64,000 nt of DNA, taken from the NCBI GenBank assembly GCA_028872875.1, contig JAGWOC010000004.1, positions 1 through 64,000 of the forward strand, written 5' to 3'. The DNA is from Chloroflexota bacterium (lineage in GTDB: Bacteria; Chloroflexota; Dehalococcoidia; DSTF01; JACRBR01). Numbering within the stretch: the stretch's first letter is position 1; the number at the start of each line of letters is the position of its first letter. Of the stretch, positions 53,149 through 61,435 are shown piece by piece. A program made the translations under genes and the position numbers. The notes under the pieces were generated by a model, which was given only the letters and a program-made list of their open reading frames with translations, was not told the origin of the DNA and made no database searches.

Positions 53149-54498
53149 ATGACGGACTACATCACCCTCCCGGAGCGGCGCGTGCCGGTCGTCGCCGCCT
53201 GCGACGTGCTGGTGGTCGGCGGCGGCGCCGCGGGCATCTCGGCGGCGGTCGCCGCGGCGCGGCAGGGCGCCGACGTCGTGCTCGCCGAGCGCTCCGGCTA
53301 CCTCGGCGGTCTGGCGTCGGGCGGGCTGATCGTGCTGCTGCTGACGCTCGACGACGGCAACGGCCGCCAGGTGGTCGCCGGCCAGTGCCAGGAGCTCGTC
53401 GAGCGGCTCGATGGGCGCGGGGCGTGCTTCTATCCGCCGCCGCAGCAGTGGGGCGTGGCGGACGACGCGCTCGTCGAGCAGTACCGGCGCTGGGGGCTGG
53501 TCTGGGGCTCGGGGCCGCACCGCGTGCGCTATTCCGTCGCGTACGACCCGGAGGAGTTCAAGTTCGTCGCGAACACCTGGGTCGCCGAGGCCGGCGTGCG
53601 GCTGATGCTGCACCGCTGGGCGAGCGACGTGGTCTTCGAGCTGGAGCGGCCGCACGGGCGGCCGGCGGGGCGCCTGTCGCACGTCGTGTTCACGTCGAAG
53701 GCGGGGCCGCAGGCGGTGCGGGCGGCGCAGGTGGTCGACGCGACGGGCGACGGCGATGTGTTCGCGCTGGCGGGCGAGTCCTTCGAGAAGGAGCAGGTGC
53801 ATCCGTGGCTCTGGTTCCGTATGTCCGGCGTGCGCGACATCGACGCGGCGCAGACCGCGCGCGGCGGCTACTTCTTCCGGACGCTGCGTCCCGGGCAGGT
53901 GCTGATGCCGTGGGGCGCGGCCGAGCGCATCGCCCGGCGCATCGACGCGACGGACCCGGACGACCTGACGTTCGCGGAGGTCGAGTGCCGCCGCATGGTG
54001 ATGGACGAGGTGGCGCGCCTGCGCGCTCAGGCCCCCGGCTTCGAGGACGCGTACCTGACCGACATCGCGCTGACGCTCGGCATCACGGAGTCGCGGCGCC
54101 TGCGCGGCGCGCACGTGCTCGCGCGCGACGAAGTGAATACGGTGTTCGACGACACCGTCGCCAGCACGGGCCACTGGACCAAGTACGGCGCCGTCTACCA
54201 CATCCCCTATCGCAGCCTGCTGCCGCTGCGGACGTCGAACCTGCTGGCGGCGGGGCGCTGCATCAGCGTCGACCATCGCGTGCACCACGCGACGAAGGAG
54301 ATCCCGCCCTGCTTCGCGACGGGGGAGGCGGCCGGCGTCGCGGCGGTACAGGCGCTGCGCGCCGGCGGCGCGGTGCAGGACGTCGACGTGCCGGCGCTGC
54401 AGCGGGCGCTGCGCGCGGCGGGCGCGTGGCTGCCGGAGGGGACGGCAGACGACAGACAACAGACGACAGACGACAGACGACAGACGACAGAGAGTTAG
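53149..54498 (+). CDS. FAD-dependent oxidoreductase
   Basis: CDVLVVGGGAAGISAAVAAARQGADVVLAERSGYLGGLASGG; VVDATGDGDVFALAG; NLLAAGRCISVDHR...ATGEAAGVAAVQAL. Confidence 0.88.
   Translation: MTDYITLPERRVPVVAACDVLVVGGGAAGISAAVAAARQGADVVLAERSGYLGGLASGGLIVLLLTLDDGNGRQVVAGQCQELVERLDGRGACFYPPPQQWGVADDALVEQYRRWGLVWGSGPHRVRYSVAYDPEEFKFVANTWVAEAGVRLMLHRWASDVVFELERPHGRPAGRLSHVVFTSKAGPQAVRAAQVVDATGDGDVFALAGESFEKEQVHPWLWFRMSGVRDIDAAQTARGGYFFRTLRPGQVLMPWGAAERIARRIDATDPDDLTFAEVECRRMVMDEVARLRAQAPGFEDAYLTDIALTLGITESRRLRGAHVLARDEVNTVFDDTVASTGHWTKYGAVYHIPYRSLLPLRTSNLLAAGRCISVDHRVHHATKEIPPCFATGEAAGVAAVQALRAGGAVQDVDVPALQRALRAAGAWLPEGTADDRQQTTDDRRQTTES
54446..54495 (+). repeat. Heptanucleotide tandem repeat (CAGACGA)n
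   Basis: Seven tandem CAGACGA-type units spanning the 3' end of the FAD oxidoreductase ORF (encodes DRQQTTDDRRQTTES). Confidence 0.85.
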
Positions 54499-54757
54499 CG
54501 TGTGCGCTCGCCCGGCGCGGTGGGGGCGTGCTCGACACGCAGGCTGTGAGAGGAGGAAGGTTGGTGGTCTTGGCCTCACACAACATGAGCCAGGCCCTGA
54601 CGGTCGCCGGGGCGGCCCTGCCGCGACCGGTAGGAACGCCTTCCAGGCCCGGTCATCGCCGTCTCGTTTCTTGCTCAGGCGACGGGCGTCGGCGGCGCCT
54701 TCGCCGCGTCTCCGCCGTCCCGGGGTGGGTTAGATCTTGTTGAGTTGGCCACTCACG

Positions 54758-54796
54758 AATCCTAACGCGACAAACAGGGTTTGTTGTGTTAGGATT
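54758..54796. promoter_or_regulatory. Long operator-like palindrome upstream of fic
   Basis: AATCCTAACGCGACAAAC-agg-GTTTGTTGTGTTAGGATT; 16/18 paired positions. Confidence 0.6.
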
Positions 54797-54803
54797 ATTT
54801 CCG

Positions 54804-55811
54804 GTGCAGCACAACACTTCCAACCGGGGCCGCCCGCCCCGCCAGATGGTCTACCAACGGCTGAGCGAAGCCATCGCCGAGCTTCGCGAGCGTATGGGCG
54901 GACTGCCCTCGCCCACAGAAGCCGAGGGCATCTGGACGTCGATCTGGTACCAGGAAGCACACCATTCTACCGCACTCGAGGGAAACACCCTCGTCATCCA
55001 GCAGGTAGAGGCCCTCTTGGCCGAAGGCCGCGCCGTTGGGAACAAAGAGCTCCGGGAGTACATGGAGGTGACAGGCTACGCGGACGCGGCGCAGTGGGTC
55101 TACGGACAGGCACTCGATCCGGGCGACTGGAACCCTGAGGCGCCACTCACCCTGACCGAGGTTCGTCACGTTCACGAGCTTGCGCTCGAACCCGTGTGGG
55201 GAGTGGCGCCCCACCCGAATGCCACGCCTAACGAGCGACCAGGCAGCTTCCGGCAGCACGACATCCAGGCGTTCTCCGGCGGGATGGTCCCTCCGTCCTG
55301 GGTCGAGGTCGGGGCCGCGATGGCGGACTGGATCAAGTCCCTTTCCGCGATCGATTCCGCTGAGAACCCCATCGAGTCAATCGCCGCGGCGCATGGCGAC
55401 TTCGAGAGGATCCACCCGTTTCTCGACGGCAACGGGCGAACGGGGCGTCTGCTTCTCAACCTGACCTTGGTGCGCTTTGGCTATCCACCTGCGGTCATCT
55501 ACACGCGAGACCGCAACAGGTACCTGCGAGCGCTACGGAAAGCAGACGCCGGAGATTCCGGCCCGCTCGGCGAGCTCATCGCCCGCGCTGTCACCGACAA
55601 TCTCTATCGCTTCGTAGTACCTGCTGTGGCAGGACCGCACCGCCTGGTTCCACTTGCCGCCTTAGCGACAAGAAGGCAAAGCGTGTTCACGCTCCGAGCA
55701 GCCATCGAACGCGGGCGGCTCAAGGCGCAGAAGGGATCAGATGGGCAGTGGCGCAGTACCCGCGTTTGGGTAGACGAGTACATCGCGAGCAAGTACCAGC
55801 GGCGAGGCTGA
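54804..55811 (+). CDS. Fic-domain AMPylase/nucleotidyltransferase family protein
   Basis: ERIHPFLDGNGRTGRLLLN (HPFxDGNGRxxR); inhibitory-motif-like STALEGN; C-terminal HTH-like region VFTLRAAIERGRLKAQKGSDGQWRSTRVWVDEYIASKYQ. Confidence 0.92.
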   Translation: MQHNTSNRGRPPRQMVYQRLSEAIAELRERMGGLPSPTEAEGIWTSIWYQEAHHSTALEGNTLVIQQVEALLAEGRAVGNKELREYMEVTGYADAAQWVYGQALDPGDWNPEAPLTLTEVRHVHELALEPVWGVAPHPNATPNERPGSFRQHDIQAFSGGMVPPSWVEVGAAMADWIKSLSAIDSAENPIESIAAAHGDFERIHPFLDGNGRTGRLLLNLTLVRFGYPPAVIYTRDRNRYLRALRKADAGDSGPLGELIARAVTDNLYRFVVPAVAGPHRLVPLAALATRRQSVFTLRAAIERGRLKAQKGSDGQWRSTRVWVDEYIASKYQRRG

Positions 55812-55975
55812 CCCGGATCTTCACGGAGCCTGACCTGAGATCGCCCGTTGGCGACATCTCCGCGGCGGATTCGAGCAGCCTCGCAAGGCTGCACGCCGAC
55901 GGTAACGACACCCGCTGTGGCATCTCGGCCCGCAGGCAACCAAGCTGAGTTCGGAGCGGTCCCTATTGGGTTGAG

Positions 55976-56051
55976 TGGTGGAGCCGAGGGGGCTCGAACC
56001 CCTGACCTCGACACTGCCAGTGTCGCGCTCTCCCAATTGAGCTACGGCCCC
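55976..56051 (-). tRNA. tRNA-Ala (anticodon GGC)
   Basis: GGGGCCGTAGCTCAATTGGGAGAGCGCGACACTGGCAGTGTCGAGGTCAGGGGTTCGAGCCCCCTCGGCTCCACCA; cloverleaf and encoded CCA. Confidence 0.96.
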
Positions 56052-56133
56052 ACACGCGGCTTCGCGGCGCGCTGCATGCTATCAAGACGGCCGGCGCGGC
56101 GGCAACAGGAGGCCACGAGCCGCATGACGACGG

Positions 56134-57045
56134 CTACGCCGCCGTTGGCTGCGGCTCGTCGCGTTGTGTTGCCTGCCGCGGGTCCGCATGCACCCGGACA
56201 GCCATCTCTAGGCCGAGACTCCGGCAGTGGTCGGCGACGGCGGCCCAGGCCTCGCTCGGTGAGACATGCACCTCGCGATACGCGAGCTGGGATTGTTTGC
56301 CCAGACAGCTCGTTTCGGGCCACAGGTCGTTGATCATCGGGCGCGCGAAGCGCACGGCGTCAGTGTCGCTCTTGGCGGGCTTGCAGGGGACGAAGCTGAA
56401 CATGCCCTCCGCGGGGTCGTCGAGCATCGCACCCTCGTACAGCACAAGGCCGCGGTCGGGGATCTGCCCGCGGATTCGGTCGAGCGTAGCTCGCCGGTAG
56501 AGGTCATCAACGTTCTGGGGGAGCGCCGATTTCCAGTAGGGTTGACCACAGCGGACCACGAACACGGTATCCAGGAAGAAATTGAACTCTGGCGCGCGGT
56601 GGCCGCACTCGTCACGCTTGCGGAGTGACCCGAAGAACACCACGTCACCTGATTCCAGTCTGCGGAGCAACTCATGTCTCGCCTGGCGGCAGATCGCGTA
56701 CCGCATACGTTCGCCGAAGATCCACGGGTCGGTGTTCTGGGCGCACGGCGGCGGGTTGTCGGTGGCGTCGAACAGGGGGCGATGCCACGCTTGGGGCAGC
56801 ATGGCCCGGTCGTCGCCGTGGAAGATGCCCGTGAGGCTCGGTGGCTCCCACTCGCCCCAAAGCCCGACCTCATGCGTTCCGGTCGATTGAGCGGCGCTCC
56901 GATCCCACATGGCTGTGGCCGCGCGGACGAGCATGAACTTGCGATGATGGCCGCCGGTGTTCCAGGGATACACGGTGCCCTCGGCTTCGCGACATCGCGG
57001 CACGTGCTCGCCGCCGGGATGGCAGAACAGGATGGTCTTCGACAT
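56134..57045 (-). CDS. Uncharacterised protein (303 aa), partner of UDG-like gene
   Basis: MSKTILFCHPGGEHVPRCREAEGTVYPWNTGGHHRKFMLV...GLWGEWEPPS...NTDPWIFGERMRYAICRQ; start 1 bp after the upstream gene's stop. Confidence 0.65.
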   Translation of the reverse strand: MSKTILFCHPGGEHVPRCREAEGTVYPWNTGGHHRKFMLVRAATAMWDRSAAQSTGTHEVGLWGEWEPPSLTGIFHGDDRAMLPQAWHRPLFDATDNPPPCAQNTDPWIFGERMRYAICRQARHELLRRLESGDVVFFGSLRKRDECGHRAPEFNFFLDTVFVVRCGQPYWKSALPQNVDDLYRRATLDRIRGQIPDRGLVLYEGAMLDDPAEGMFSFVPCKPAKSDTDAVRFARPMINDLWPETSCLGKQSQLAYREVHVSPSEAWAAVADHCRSLGLEMAVRVHADPRQATQRDEPQPTAA

Positions 57046-57046
57046 G

Positions 57047-57835
57047 TCAGGACGCCCTCCGCATACGTCGATCTTCCAACAGCGCAGCGACTGATCGGAG
57101 TTCGGCGTGGGAAAGAGGCGCGCCGGGCGTGCCCCTGAGATACGGCTTGAGCCCGAACAGCGGCAGGGCACGGCCGTCCGGCAGGCGCCATGTGGATTGG
57201 CGCAACGCAGGCGTCCACCCCTTCATCTTCGGGAGGTGATCCAGTTCTGTGGAGACCGGGAGGAAGAGAAAGCCGGCCTGCTTTTCCAGCGCCTCGCGCG
57301 CCGTCTTCCCGACGACAATGATCCGCTCGGCGTGTCGGGCATACAGGAGGACGGCGGCAAGCGTTTCGTAGCCGGAAGCGGCGAGGCGGATCGAGACCGC
57401 CTCGCCGAGCTTGCTCCACGCTGGGCTGGTCGCGAAGCACGACATGACGTCGGTATGCGCCGCAGTGCCCGCGTAGTAACTGTCGCCGAAACCGTTCAGA
57501 AGCGCTTCGAGCCAGCCGAACCACGCGCGGTAGGGGTTGCTCTGGAAGTAGCGCCGCATCCCATCCAGCGCCACGCGCGCGTTCGATGCGTCATCTCCGC
57601 AGAAGTCAGATTGATGGGCGAAGCGTCGTTTCGTTGGGGGTAGTGGCTTGTGGTCCTTCCCCCAGAACTCATGCCACGAGGGGTTGATCCCGATGGTGAT
57701 CGTGCGAGCGTTGCTGAGTTCTCCGAAGAAGAGCACCGGCGTTGAGTCTTCGCAGACGGCTGCAACGCCCTGCCGCCGGATCGCGTGCATGTCGTCCAGC
57801 CGGGCAAGGAACAACTGCTCCAATGATTCGCTCAT
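57047..57835 (-). CDS. Uracil-DNA-glycosylase-superfamily-like protein (262 aa)
   Basis: VLFFGELSNARTITIGINPSWHEFWG (GINPS-type motif I) and RIIVVGKTAREAL; family call by motif only. Confidence 0.5.
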   Translation of the reverse strand: MSESLEQLFLARLDDMHAIRRQGVAAVCEDSTPVLFFGELSNARTITIGINPSWHEFWGKDHKPLPPTKRRFAHQSDFCGDDASNARVALDGMRRYFQSNPYRAWFGWLEALLNGFGDSYYAGTAAHTDVMSCFATSPAWSKLGEAVSIRLAASGYETLAAVLLYARHAERIIVVGKTAREALEKQAGFLFLPVSTELDHLPKMKGWTPALRQSTWRLPDGRALPLFGLKPYLRGTPGAPLSHAELRSVAALLEDRRMRRAS

Positions 57836-57944
57836 CTGCCCTCCTCAGATCGCATCCACGTGGGACATCGGCGGACGAATGCAGTGCTGCTGTGCGGATC
57901 GCCCCGGCTGTTGGCAGATGGATCCCCCAATTTGTCGCGCCGCT

Positions 57945-57974
57945 TGCCTCCGCCGCGCGGGATCTTCGTATAAT
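57945..57974 (+). promoter_or_regulatory. Sigma70-like promoter for T-box leader
   Basis: TTGCCT-18 bp-TATAAT. Confidence 0.55.
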
Positions 57975-57980
57975 GCGCCC

Positions 57981-58220
57981 AACCAGACGGAACGCGGCGA
58001 TCCGGAGTAGTAGGCGCAGGGCAGAGAGCCGGCGGCGGTGCAAGCCGGCAGCGGGGGCGCTGAACTCGCCGGGGAGCGGCGCCGGCGACGCTCGCGCACG
58101 CGAGCCAGCCGGCGACGGGTGCGCCCGCTACAGCGCTGCTTGAGTGGCCCGCCGCGCCGGGCAACCAGGGTGGTACCGCGGAGTCATGCCCTCCGTCCCT
58201 GCGAGGACGGAGGGCATGCT
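57981..58220 (+). ncRNA. T-box leader (candidate specifier CTC, Leu)
   Basis: AGGGTGGTACCGCG T-box sequence at 58167-58180; stem I-like GCAGAGAGCCGGCGGCGGTGCAAGCCGGC; GAACTCGCC specifier region; 13-bp terminator ATGCCCTCCGTCC-ctgcga-GGACGGAGGGCAT (58186-58217). Confidence 0.88.
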
Positions 58221-58248
58221 GCTTGTTCAGCGGGTGAGGCGGCAGGGC

Positions 58249-58713
58249 ATGATCGACACGGCCGGCCAGTGGGCCATCATCGGGCGGATCGCGCTGGCGG
58301 CAGGGCTCGGCGCCAGCATCGGCCTCGAGCGCGAGTACCGCGGCTACCCCGCCGGGGTACGGACGATGGCGCTCGTGTGCATGGGCGCCGCGCTCTTCGC
58401 CGACGAGTCGGGGCTGTTCGGCGGTGATGCGGCGCGCGTCGCGGCGCAGATCGTCTCCGGCATCGGCTTCCTGGGCGCCGGGCTGATCCTGCGCGAGGGT
58501 GGCAGCGTGCGCGGCATCACGACGGCCGCGACGATCTGGACGACCGCCGCGGTCGGCGTCGCGGTCGGCGCGCACGTCTACCTCGTCGCCGTGTTCGCGG
58601 CGCTCTTCGCGGTGATCCTGCTCGAGCTGCGGATCGTCACGAAGAGCATCCGACCCATCGGCCACGAGACGAACGGCGACCCGGAGGACGAGGCGGGGCA
58701 CGAGCACGACTGA
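58249..58713 (+). CDS. MgtC/SapB-family membrane protein
   Basis: IIGRIALAAGLGASIGLEREYRGYPAGVRTMALVCMGAALF, VSGIGFLGAGLILREGGSVRGITTAATIWTTAAVGVAVG; start placed after T-box terminator. Confidence 0.88.
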   Translation: MIDTAGQWAIIGRIALAAGLGASIGLEREYRGYPAGVRTMALVCMGAALFADESGLFGGDAARVAAQIVSGIGFLGAGLILREGGSVRGITTAATIWTTAAVGVAVGAHVYLVAVFAALFAVILLELRIVTKSIRPIGHETNGDPEDEAGHEHD

Positions 58714-58761
58714 CGGGGGCCAGAGCGCGGCAGGCATCGGGAAGGGCCGGCCTCACGGGAG

Positions 58762-61257
58762 GTGCACATGGGCGAGCAGACACAGACGAAGCGGAAGCCG
58801 CCGCGCGCGGAACGCTACGACCCCCGCGCCATCGAGCCGAAGTGGCGCGCGCGCTGGGAAGCCGACGGCATCTACCGCACGCCGGACGACGACCCGCGGC
58901 CGAAGTGGTACGCGCTGACGATGCTGCCGTACACGTCGGGCGACCTGCACATCGGCCACTGGTGGGCGATGGCGCCGTCGGACACGCAGGCGCGCTACAA
59001 GCGGATGCGCGGCTACAACGTGCTCTTCCCGATGGGCTTCGACGCGTTCGGCCTGCCGGCAGAGAACGCGGCCATCAAGGACCAGACGCACCCGGCGCAG
59101 TGGACGTACCGCAACATCGAGCACATGCGCCGCCAGCTCAAGACGATGGGCGCGATGTTCGACTGGAGTCGCGAGGTGATCACGGCGTCGCCGGAGTACT
59201 ACCGGTGGACGCAGTGGTGGTTCCTGAAGCTGCTGGAGCACGGGCTGGCGTACAAGCAGCACGCGCCCGTGTGGTGGTGCCCGAACGACCAGACGGTGCT
59301 GGCGAACGAACAGGTCATCGACGGCCGCTGCGAGCGCTGCGGCGCGGCCGTCTACAAGCGCGACCTGGACCAGTGGTTCTTCCGCATCACGGCGTACGCC
59401 GACGAGCTGCTGGACTTCTCCGGCCTGCAGTGGCCGCCGCAGATCGCCGCGATGCAGCGGAACTGGATCGGGCGCAGCGAGGGCGCGGAGCTGCGCTTCG
59501 GGTTGGACGTGCCCGGCGTCGAGACGAAAGACGTGCGCGTCTTCACAACGCGGCCGGACACGGTCTACGGCGTGACCTTCTTCGTGCTGGCGCCGGAGCA
59601 CCCGCTCGTCGAGCGGCTGACGACGCCGGACCGCGCCGCCGAGGTGCGCGCGTACGCCGACGCGGCCCGCAAGGAGACGGAGATCGAGCGCCTGTCGACG
59701 GAGCGCGAGAAGACCGGCGTCTTCACCGGCGGCTACGTGATCAACCTGTTCAACGGCGAGCGCGTGCCGGTGTGGACGGCTGACTACGTGCTCTCGACCT
59801 ACGGCACCGGCGCCGTGATGGGCGTGCCGGCGCACGACCAGCGCGACTTCGAGTTCGCGAAGAAGTACGGGCTGCCGGTCGTGCCGGTGTTCCGCCACCC
59901 TGACGGGGACGGCGGCGAGCTGACGGCGGCGCTCGGCCACGGCGGCACGATGATCAACTCTGGGCCGTTCGACGGGACGCCCGACGAAGAGGCGGTCGCG
60001 GCCGTCGTGACGTACGCCGAAGAGCGCGGGTATGGCCGGGCGGCCGTTAGCTACCGCCTGCGCGACTGGCTGATCTCGCGCCAGCGCATGTGGGGCGCGC
60101 CGATCCCCGTCGTCTACTGCGACACGCACGGCATGGTGCCGGTGCCGGAGAAGGACCTGCCGGTGCTGCTGCCCGAGGATGCGGAGTTCCGCCCGACGGG
60201 CGAATCGCCGCTGACGTACCACGAGGGCTTCCTGCACACGACGTGCCCGGTCGGCGGCGAGCCCGCGCGCCGCGAGACGGACACGATGGACACGTTCATG
60301 TGCTCGTCGTGGTACCAGATGCGGTACATCGACCCGCACAACAGCGAGCGGCCGTTCAGCAGCGAGCTGGCGCGCAAGTGGCTGCCGGTCGACCAGTACA
60401 CGGGCGGCGCCGAGCACGCGGTCATGCACCTGCTCTACTCGCGGTTCTTCACCAAGGCCGCGCGCGACATGGGCTTCGTCGAGTGCGACGAGCCGTTCAT
60501 CCGGCTGTTCAACCAGGGGCAGATCCTGGGGCCGGACGGGCAGCGCATGAGCAAGTCGCGCGGAAACGTCGTCGCGCCGGACGACCAGGTCGCGCAGTGG
60601 GGCGCCGACACCTTCCGCGCCTACCTGATGTTCCTGGGGCCGTGGGACCAGGGCGGGCCGTACGACCCGAGCGGCATCAACGGCGTCTACCGCTGGCTGA
60701 ACCGCGCCTGGAACGTCGTCACCGGCGGGGTCGCGGCCGCGGCGAGCCCCGGCGCGCCGGAGACGCGCGCGCTGCGCCGCTGGACGCACCGCACGGTCGA
60801 GCGCGTGACGCGCGACATCGAGGCGTTCCACTTCAACACGATGATCGCGGCGCTGATGGAGTACACGAACGAGCTGACGCGACTGCGCGAGTCCGGCGCG
60901 GCGGTCGACGCCGCCGCCTGGGACGAGGCGATGCGCGCGCTGGTGCTGATGCTCGCGCCGGCCGTGCCGCACATCGCGGAGGAGCTGTGGCAGCGGCTGG
61001 GCCAGCCGTACAGCGTCCACACGCAGAGCTGGCCGGCCTTCGACCCGGCGCTGGCCGTCGAGGAGGAGGTCGAGATCGCGGTGCAGGTGAACGGCAAGCT
61101 GCGCGACCGCCTCTCGCTGCCGCTCGACGCGCCGGAGGACGCCGCGCGCGAGCGGGCGCTGGCGAGCGGGCGCGTGGCGCCGCACGTCGCGGGCAGGGAG
61201 ATTGTGCGGGTGATCTACGTGCCGAATCGGCTGCTGAACATCGTGGTGCGCGCCTGA
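58762..61257 (+). CDS. leuS: Leucyl-tRNA synthetase
   Basis: PYTSGDLHIGHWWAMAPSD (HIGH), PMGFDAFGLPAENAAI, RMSKSRGNVVAPDD (KMSKS), WHYTQ-type zinc/editing motifs. Confidence 0.96.
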   Translation: MHMGEQTQTKRKPPRAERYDPRAIEPKWRARWEADGIYRTPDDDPRPKWYALTMLPYTSGDLHIGHWWAMAPSDTQARYKRMRGYNVLFPMGFDAFGLPAENAAIKDQTHPAQWTYRNIEHMRRQLKTMGAMFDWSREVITASPEYYRWTQWWFLKLLEHGLAYKQHAPVWWCPNDQTVLANEQVIDGRCERCGAAVYKRDLDQWFFRITAYADELLDFSGLQWPPQIAAMQRNWIGRSEGAELRFGLDVPGVETKDVRVFTTRPDTVYGVTFFVLAPEHPLVERLTTPDRAAEVRAYADAARKETEIERLSTEREKTGVFTGGYVINLFNGERVPVWTADYVLSTYGTGAVMGVPAHDQRDFEFAKKYGLPVVPVFRHPDGDGGELTAALGHGGTMINSGPFDGTPDEEAVAAVVTYAEERGYGRAAVSYRLRDWLISRQRMWGAPIPVVYCDTHGMVPVPEKDLPVLLPEDAEFRPTGESPLTYHEGFLHTTCPVGGEPARRETDTMDTFMCSSWYQMRYIDPHNSERPFSSELARKWLPVDQYTGGAEHAVMHLLYSRFFTKAARDMGFVECDEPFIRLFNQGQILGPDGQRMSKSRGNVVAPDDQVAQWGADTFRAYLMFLGPWDQGGPYDPSGINGVYRWLNRAWNVVTGGVAAAASPGAPETRALRRWTHRTVERVTRDIEAFHFNTMIAALMEYTNELTRLRESGAAVDAAAWDEAMRALVLMLAPAVPHIAEELWQRLGQPYSVHTQSWPAFDPALAVEEEVEIAVQVNGKLRDRLSLPLDAPEDAARERALASGRVAPHVAGREIVRVIYVPNRLLNIVVRA

Positions 61258-61435
61258 GCGGGTATCGAGTTCGATACCGTTGGCATCGCGGCCGGTTCGG
61301 ACGGCGGCACGTACGCCACTTCTCGGGCCGCGCGGCCCGTGTATCCACCGCATCGCACACCGTGCAGCCCCGGTGCCCGTCGCTACTGCCTGCGCCGTGG
61401 CCCGCGTATGCTCTTCCTCACGAGGAGGTGCTTCG

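Follow-up and report, generated by a model that had tools for sequence, protein, structure and literature searches.

What do the two adjacent minus-strand genes located between a tRNA-Ala(GGC) gene and a T-box leader in a Chloroflexota bacterium encode, and do their products act together? The genes lie in the window, that is, the whole analyzed stretch of 64,000 nucleotides (positions 1 to 64,000 of contig JAGWOC010000004.1). An earlier note, made from the sequence alone, had described them as a gene for a protein similar to the uracil-DNA glycosylase (UDG) superfamily coupled to a gene for a protein of no recognizable family, and had proposed that the two products jointly act on modified bases of foreign DNA. 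Very probably, this pair is a divergent anti-phage operon of the Brig3-BapA type, gained by horizontal transfer.

The two-gene Brig3-BapA operon comes from soil DNA, namely from one metagenomic clone (GenBank PX942695; PMC13160076, bioRxiv Feb 2026). Brig3 is a UDG-superfamily enzyme that excises 5-hydroxymethylcytosine (5hmC) from DNA and retains a weak uracil activity, and BapA, a predicted ASCH-like protein with an essential D101, takes glucose off glucosyl-5hmC (PMC13160076). The brig3 and bapA genes overlap, and the pair restricts fully glucosylated T4 (PMC13160076). The crystal structure and mutants of Brig3 name the pocket residues F31, N50, P51, S52, E55, Y97, W100, F101, H125, and D127, and the enzyme also requires N225 in the DNA-intercalation loop (PMC13160076). 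Homology of the window proteins to Brig3 and BapA was judged from the published residue numbers and spacing, the fold, and the gene order. In structure prediction, one alignment row, which came from a plasmid record, was left out.

Gene Pair and Its Genomic Context

The main features of the locus are the following.

57047..57835, minus strand: Brig3-type DNA glycosylase gene (UDG superfamily), 262 aa, the upstream member of the pair, assigned by the UDG fold and residue equivalents
56134..57045, minus strand: BapA-type gene (putative DNA deglucosylase), 303 aa, the downstream member, with a family of 54 aligned homologues
56109..57935, no strand: accessory insert of 1.83 kb containing the two genes and no others; the sister species has 91 unrelated bp here
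55976-56051, minus strand: tRNA-Ala(GGC), a neighbor outside the insert, present also in the sister genome
57988-58203, plus strand: T-box leader upstream of a membrane-protein-like open reading frame (ORF) and leuS, a neighbor outside the insert

The arrangement described in the earlier note was confirmed: both minus-strand ORFs, of 262 and 303 aa, are intact and contain the quoted motifs, and the ATG of the 303-aa gene lies 1 bp past the stop codon of the glycosylase gene. The family alignment favors this ATG (57045) as the start of the 303-aa gene; the GTG codon that opens a longer frame at 57171 is an unlikely start. The islet is more than a chance arrangement, because both proteins belong to conserved families and retain the invariant residues. 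Profile scans yielded no useful Pfam, NCBIfam, PADLOC, or PHROG match for either protein, the PDB sequence searches with single sequences and profiles gave no match for them, neither was found in the GenBank phage records, and no other phage-defence system adjoining the pair in the window was established.

The pair is accessory DNA, because the insert is missing from a sister species, where 91 bp occupy this site. This sister belongs to the same genus, its LeuS is 95% identical to that of the host, and its genome aligns to the window with 89.6% identity over 53927-56108 and 93.7% identity over 57936-61362. From about 54600 to 57900, the GC content is 63-68%, while the flanking DNA mostly has 70-75%. 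Of two possible histories, acquisition by the host seems more likely than loss in the sister, since a search of 98 related genomes revealed no homologues of the 303-aa protein.

Both RNA neighbors named in the earlier note are real. The T-box was identified with E 3.3e-12 and 59 bits; this score is under the Rfam gathering score of 93, which is why the default Rfam scan missed it. The tRNA-Ala gene and an adjoining Fic-domain gene lie outside the insert, since both are also present in the sister genome. The earlier note had further taken the tRNA neighbor as a sign of integration. In its classical form, integration into a tRNA site was rejected, because the tRNA gene has the insert on its 5' side, none of the ORFs within these 1.83 kb was recognized as an integrase, and long flanking repeats were not found, the ends of the insert having only chance matches of 8-9 bp in common.

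Several other observations concern this neighborhood. The Fic-domain gene (54786-55811, plus strand), with matches to Pfam Fic and PADLOC SoFic/PDC-S04, has a GC content below that of most of its surroundings and is common to the window and the sister species. The sequence GACGACA forms a short tandem repeat (7.3 copies, 54441-54491) at the end of an FAD-protein gene upstream of the Fic gene. Finally, the tRNA-Ala gene beside leuS has the same direction as leuS in two further genera of the family (L118:3238-3313 and L120:5826-5901) and the opposite one in the window and the sister, which suggests that this region was inverted or rearranged.

Brig3-Type Glycosylase

The assignment of the 262-aa protein to the UDG superfamily, proposed in the earlier note from sequence features, is borne out by its predicted structure (pLDDT 85). 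The first 18 PDB matches of the model are all members of UDG family 4, UdgX, SMUG1, or UNG, with the best E of 6.9e-5 and probability of 1.00. At the level of sequence profiles, comparison with the canonical UDG and EVE alignments was not significant, and a Pfam UDG match, at 0.02 or weaker, was obtained in only three of 25 members of the glycosylase family.

By the published residue numbers, all ten pocket and catalytic residues of Brig3 have equivalents in the window protein (Brig3 residue first):

F31, F37; N50, N51; P51, P52; S52, S53; E55, E56
Y97, Y102; W100, W105; F101, F106; H125, H127; D127, D129

In the family alignment, the columns of these ten residues are invariant or nearly so. 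A homologue from Chloroflexia (L021) contains F31, N50, P51, S52, R53, E55, Y97, W100, F101, H125, and D127 with exactly the published spacing, and a homologue from Acidobacteriaceae (L056) shows the published loop pattern A224, N225, G229, T230, and N233. Among 2455 scanned ORFs, including those of 30 canonical-UDG loci, this residue constellation is restricted to the Brig3-type family.

The window protein has W54 where Brig3 has R53, and its DNA-intercalation loop, FGLKPYLRGTPGAPLS, contains no Asn, as against N225 needed by Brig3. This position varies in the relatives as well, being occupied by Gln in L021 and L018. We treat N225, which is not conserved across the family, as a residue of Brig3 itself rather than a family-defining one, and therefore assign the window protein, whose loop lacks it, to the Brig3 type without equating it with Brig3. 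In the two family trees, the window proteins form terminal branches of 2.7 and 2.55, are among the most divergent members of their families or even the most divergent ones, and fall near different neighbors with weak support.

BapA-Type Partner

The alignment of the 303-aa family comprises 54 homologues and has 21 invariant columns, including the NTDP motif. The Asp residue of this motif, D106 in the window protein, occurs without exception in the 54 members, at positions 94-133. Judged by its position, D106 is the likely counterpart of the essential BapA residue D101, a natural choice because the sole other invariant Asp of the family is D159.

The predicted model of the 303-aa protein is beta-rich and confident (pLDDT 88). 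PUA-like structures of the EVE, ASCH, and YqfB types recur among its weak PDB matches, and ASCH proteins occur among the weak matches in a viral library; the best EVE/ASCH-type match has E of about 0.5, and none is below 0.001. These weak matches would fit the ASCH-like fold predicted for BapA. At the same time, none of the 54 family members matches Pfam ASCH or EVE. The nucleotide-modification-associated (Nmad) domains, named in the earlier note for comparison with both proteins, were rejected as an identity of the partner, as none of the 54 members matches an Nmad Pfam model.

The 303-aa protein, described in the earlier note as unrecognized, could be placed in none of the families of Pfam, NCBIfam, PADLOC, or PHROG. 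The pair is no unknown association, because it matches the described Brig3-BapA system.

Distribution, Pairing, and Gene Fusions

When viral and genome contigs were scanned with single sequences, no match for the pair proteins was obtained. Searches by tblastn identified plasmid-borne homologues of both proteins, that of the 303-aa protein in Synechocystis and that of the 262-aa protein in Leptospira. The Synechocystis gene (L002:7834-8743) is a BapA-type gene that is degraded and frameshifted. Scanning of 85,462 species genomes with a two-sequence alignment, composed of the 303-aa protein and its Synechocystis plasmid homologue, revealed 55 genome loci of the 303-aa family; by organism labels, the family occurs in at least 11 phyla, in addition to the cyanobacterial plasmid.

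According to HMM searches, the glycosylase adjoins, overlaps, or is fused to the partner in 22 of the 55 loci, counting two fusions in Peribacillus, so that the recurrent pairing that the earlier note had put forward as a check was indeed observed. The paired loci come from at least seven phyla, namely, Chloroflexota, Actinomycetota, Acidobacteriota, Armatimonadota, Bacteroidota, Bacillota, and Planctomycetota. Usually the glycosylase gene is first, often with an overlap of 4-11 bp; the order is reversed in three paired loci (L046, L048, and L051). In the cultured species Peribacillus deserti (807 aa, L031:7158-9581) and P. saganii (778 aa, L044:2833-5169), both proteins are encoded by a single continuous frame with about 190-200 extra C-terminal residues, which in the P. 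deserti fusion match no Pfam family. Such fusions fit enzymes that benefit from proximity. The gene order, overlaps, and fusions, considered jointly, make it very likely that the glycosylase and its partner are functionally linked.

The remaining 33 of the 55 BapA-type loci have no glycosylase, and therefore the partner family may have other roles besides this pairing. Across phyla, the glycosylase-less BapA-type genes are often located a few to about 100 bp from genes of repeat proteins, including BspA-type LRR proteins (L012, L023, L026, L028, L030, and L050), Sel1 proteins (L040 and L059), a TPR protein (L049), and a DUF285 protein (L042); some of these neighbors carry dockerin or PKD domains.

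Brig3-type genes, in turn, are also found flanked by genes of a thymidylate-synthase homologue and an aGPT-PPlase3/ADDT amino-acid:DNA transferase, which constitute a phage-type thymine-hypermodification cassette. Such cassettes were observed on the Leptospira plasmid (L003:6946-9507) and on two viral contigs (L060, L061:6849-9664). The cassette glycosylases form a separate, well-supported clade in the tree and have no BapA-type partner.

Proposed Mechanism and Alternative Explanations

We infer both enzymatic activities and the defence role of the window pair from the published Brig3-BapA work. The target would be the DNA of an infecting phage that contains hydroxymethylated and further sugar-decorated pyrimidines. 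The 303-aa protein would flip the decorated base out and hydrolyze the sugar off, leaving a hydroxymethyl base. This base could then be flipped into the aromatic pocket of the 262-aa glycosylase, formed by F37, Y102, W105, F106, and H127, where E56 would read the hydroxymethyl group, and N51 and D129 would cut the glycosidic bond. The resulting abasic sites would block phage replication. The core of the earlier proposal, joint action on modified bases of foreign DNA, is well supported by the UDG fold, recurrent pairing, and fusions; the points that needed revision are a possible Nmad nature of the partner, the integration at the tRNA gene, and the view of the pair as an unknown association, as the system has been described.

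A variant of this explanation, compatible with it, keeps the same two-step mechanism and assumes another target base in phages of the pair's own host, for instance, sugar-decorated hydroxymethyluracil or a differently glycosylated hmC. The long branches of both window proteins, the altered intercalation loop together with W54 in place of R53, and the occurrence of glycosylase relatives in thymine-hypermodification cassettes all point in this direction, and Brig1 and Brig2 demonstrate that specificity does change in such glycosylases (PMC11078745; Brig2 as cited in PMC13160076). However, the residues tied in Brig3 to recognition and excision of 5hmC (E55, D127, W100, and N50) are all kept in the window protein, and we regard the other target as plausible, if somewhat improbable. 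A more tentative and rather unlikely proposal is that the 303-aa protein represents a large, as yet undescribed enzyme family whose members remove chemical decorations from hypermodified DNA. In the window, its target, attacked jointly with the Brig3-type glycosylase, would be some modified base different from glucosyl-5hmC; in other genomes, the family would cooperate with different proteins, for example, repeat proteins.

The glycosylase could also serve the cell itself, repairing deaminated or oxidized host bases with the 303-aa protein as a DNA-binding helper. Such a role in host DNA repair would agree with the UDG fold of the 262-aa protein and with the weak uracil activity of Brig3 (PMC13160076), but it is very unlikely for a patchy, accessory pair that is missing from the sister at this site and whose partner was not found in the 98 related genomes. 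Moreover, each of the 25 tested relatives, counting the host, has canonical UDGs, and the active site matches that of Brig3 and lacks the canonical UDG motifs. Finally, the location of relatives between the thymidylate-synthase homologue and the aGPT-PPlase3/ADDT enzyme, on the Leptospira plasmid and the two viral contigs, might suggest a base-modification module derived from a phage or plasmid, in which the glycosylase edits the DNA of the element. We consider this explanation extremely improbable, as both the separate, partner-less clade of the cassette glycosylases and the composition of the window insert, which is limited to the pair and carries no modification enzymes, speak against it. 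The preferred reading of the locus is a Brig3-BapA-type operon directed against phages.

Comparison with Known Systems

Brig3-BapA has been known from one metagenomic clone, and our results suggest that it represents a widespread and mobile two-gene defence, as coupled genes occur in at least seven phyla, natural fusions exist in Peribacillus, and the insertion in the host genome is clean. The paper on this system (PMC13160076) is silent on how widely the pair occurs, on fused forms, on BapA-type proteins that lack a glycosylase, and on Brig3-type genes in thymine-modification cassettes. The many natural variants provide material for asking how such glycosylases choose the modified base, and the BapA-type proteins without a glycosylase raise the question of their function.

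The window glycosylase has a common overall fold with the canonical uracil-DNA glycosylases (PF03167; family 4, UdgX, and SMUG1), but it has neither a Pfam UDG match nor the HPS/HPA motif. The ASCH and EVE (PUA-like) domains are the source of the most plausible, though weak, matches of the partner model, whereas the partner is larger, has invariant motifs of its own, and has no Pfam ASCH/EVE match among the 54 members.

Brig1, an alpha-glucosyl-hmC DNA glycosylase, is sufficient alone (PMC11078745). Like the predicted activity of the window protein, it represents a UDG-superfamily glycosylase directed at phages with modified cytosine; it differs in having E147 at the base-recognition site, where the window protein has D129.

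The closest system is Brig3-BapA itself. As in the window, a gene of a glycosylase with the UDG fold is directly followed by a gene of a partner of no established family, the ten pocket and catalytic residues have their equivalents, and the partner has an Asp near residue 101; the weak ASCH/EVE-type matches of the window partner might reflect an ASCH-like beta-barrel such as that predicted for BapA. In contrast, the window proteins are divergent, as seen from their long branches, the intercalation loop is different and lacks Asn, and the genes are separated by 1 bp, whereas brig3 and bapA overlap. Taken together, these comparisons lead us to classify the window pair as a probable divergent representative of the Brig3-BapA type, a system that has already been described.
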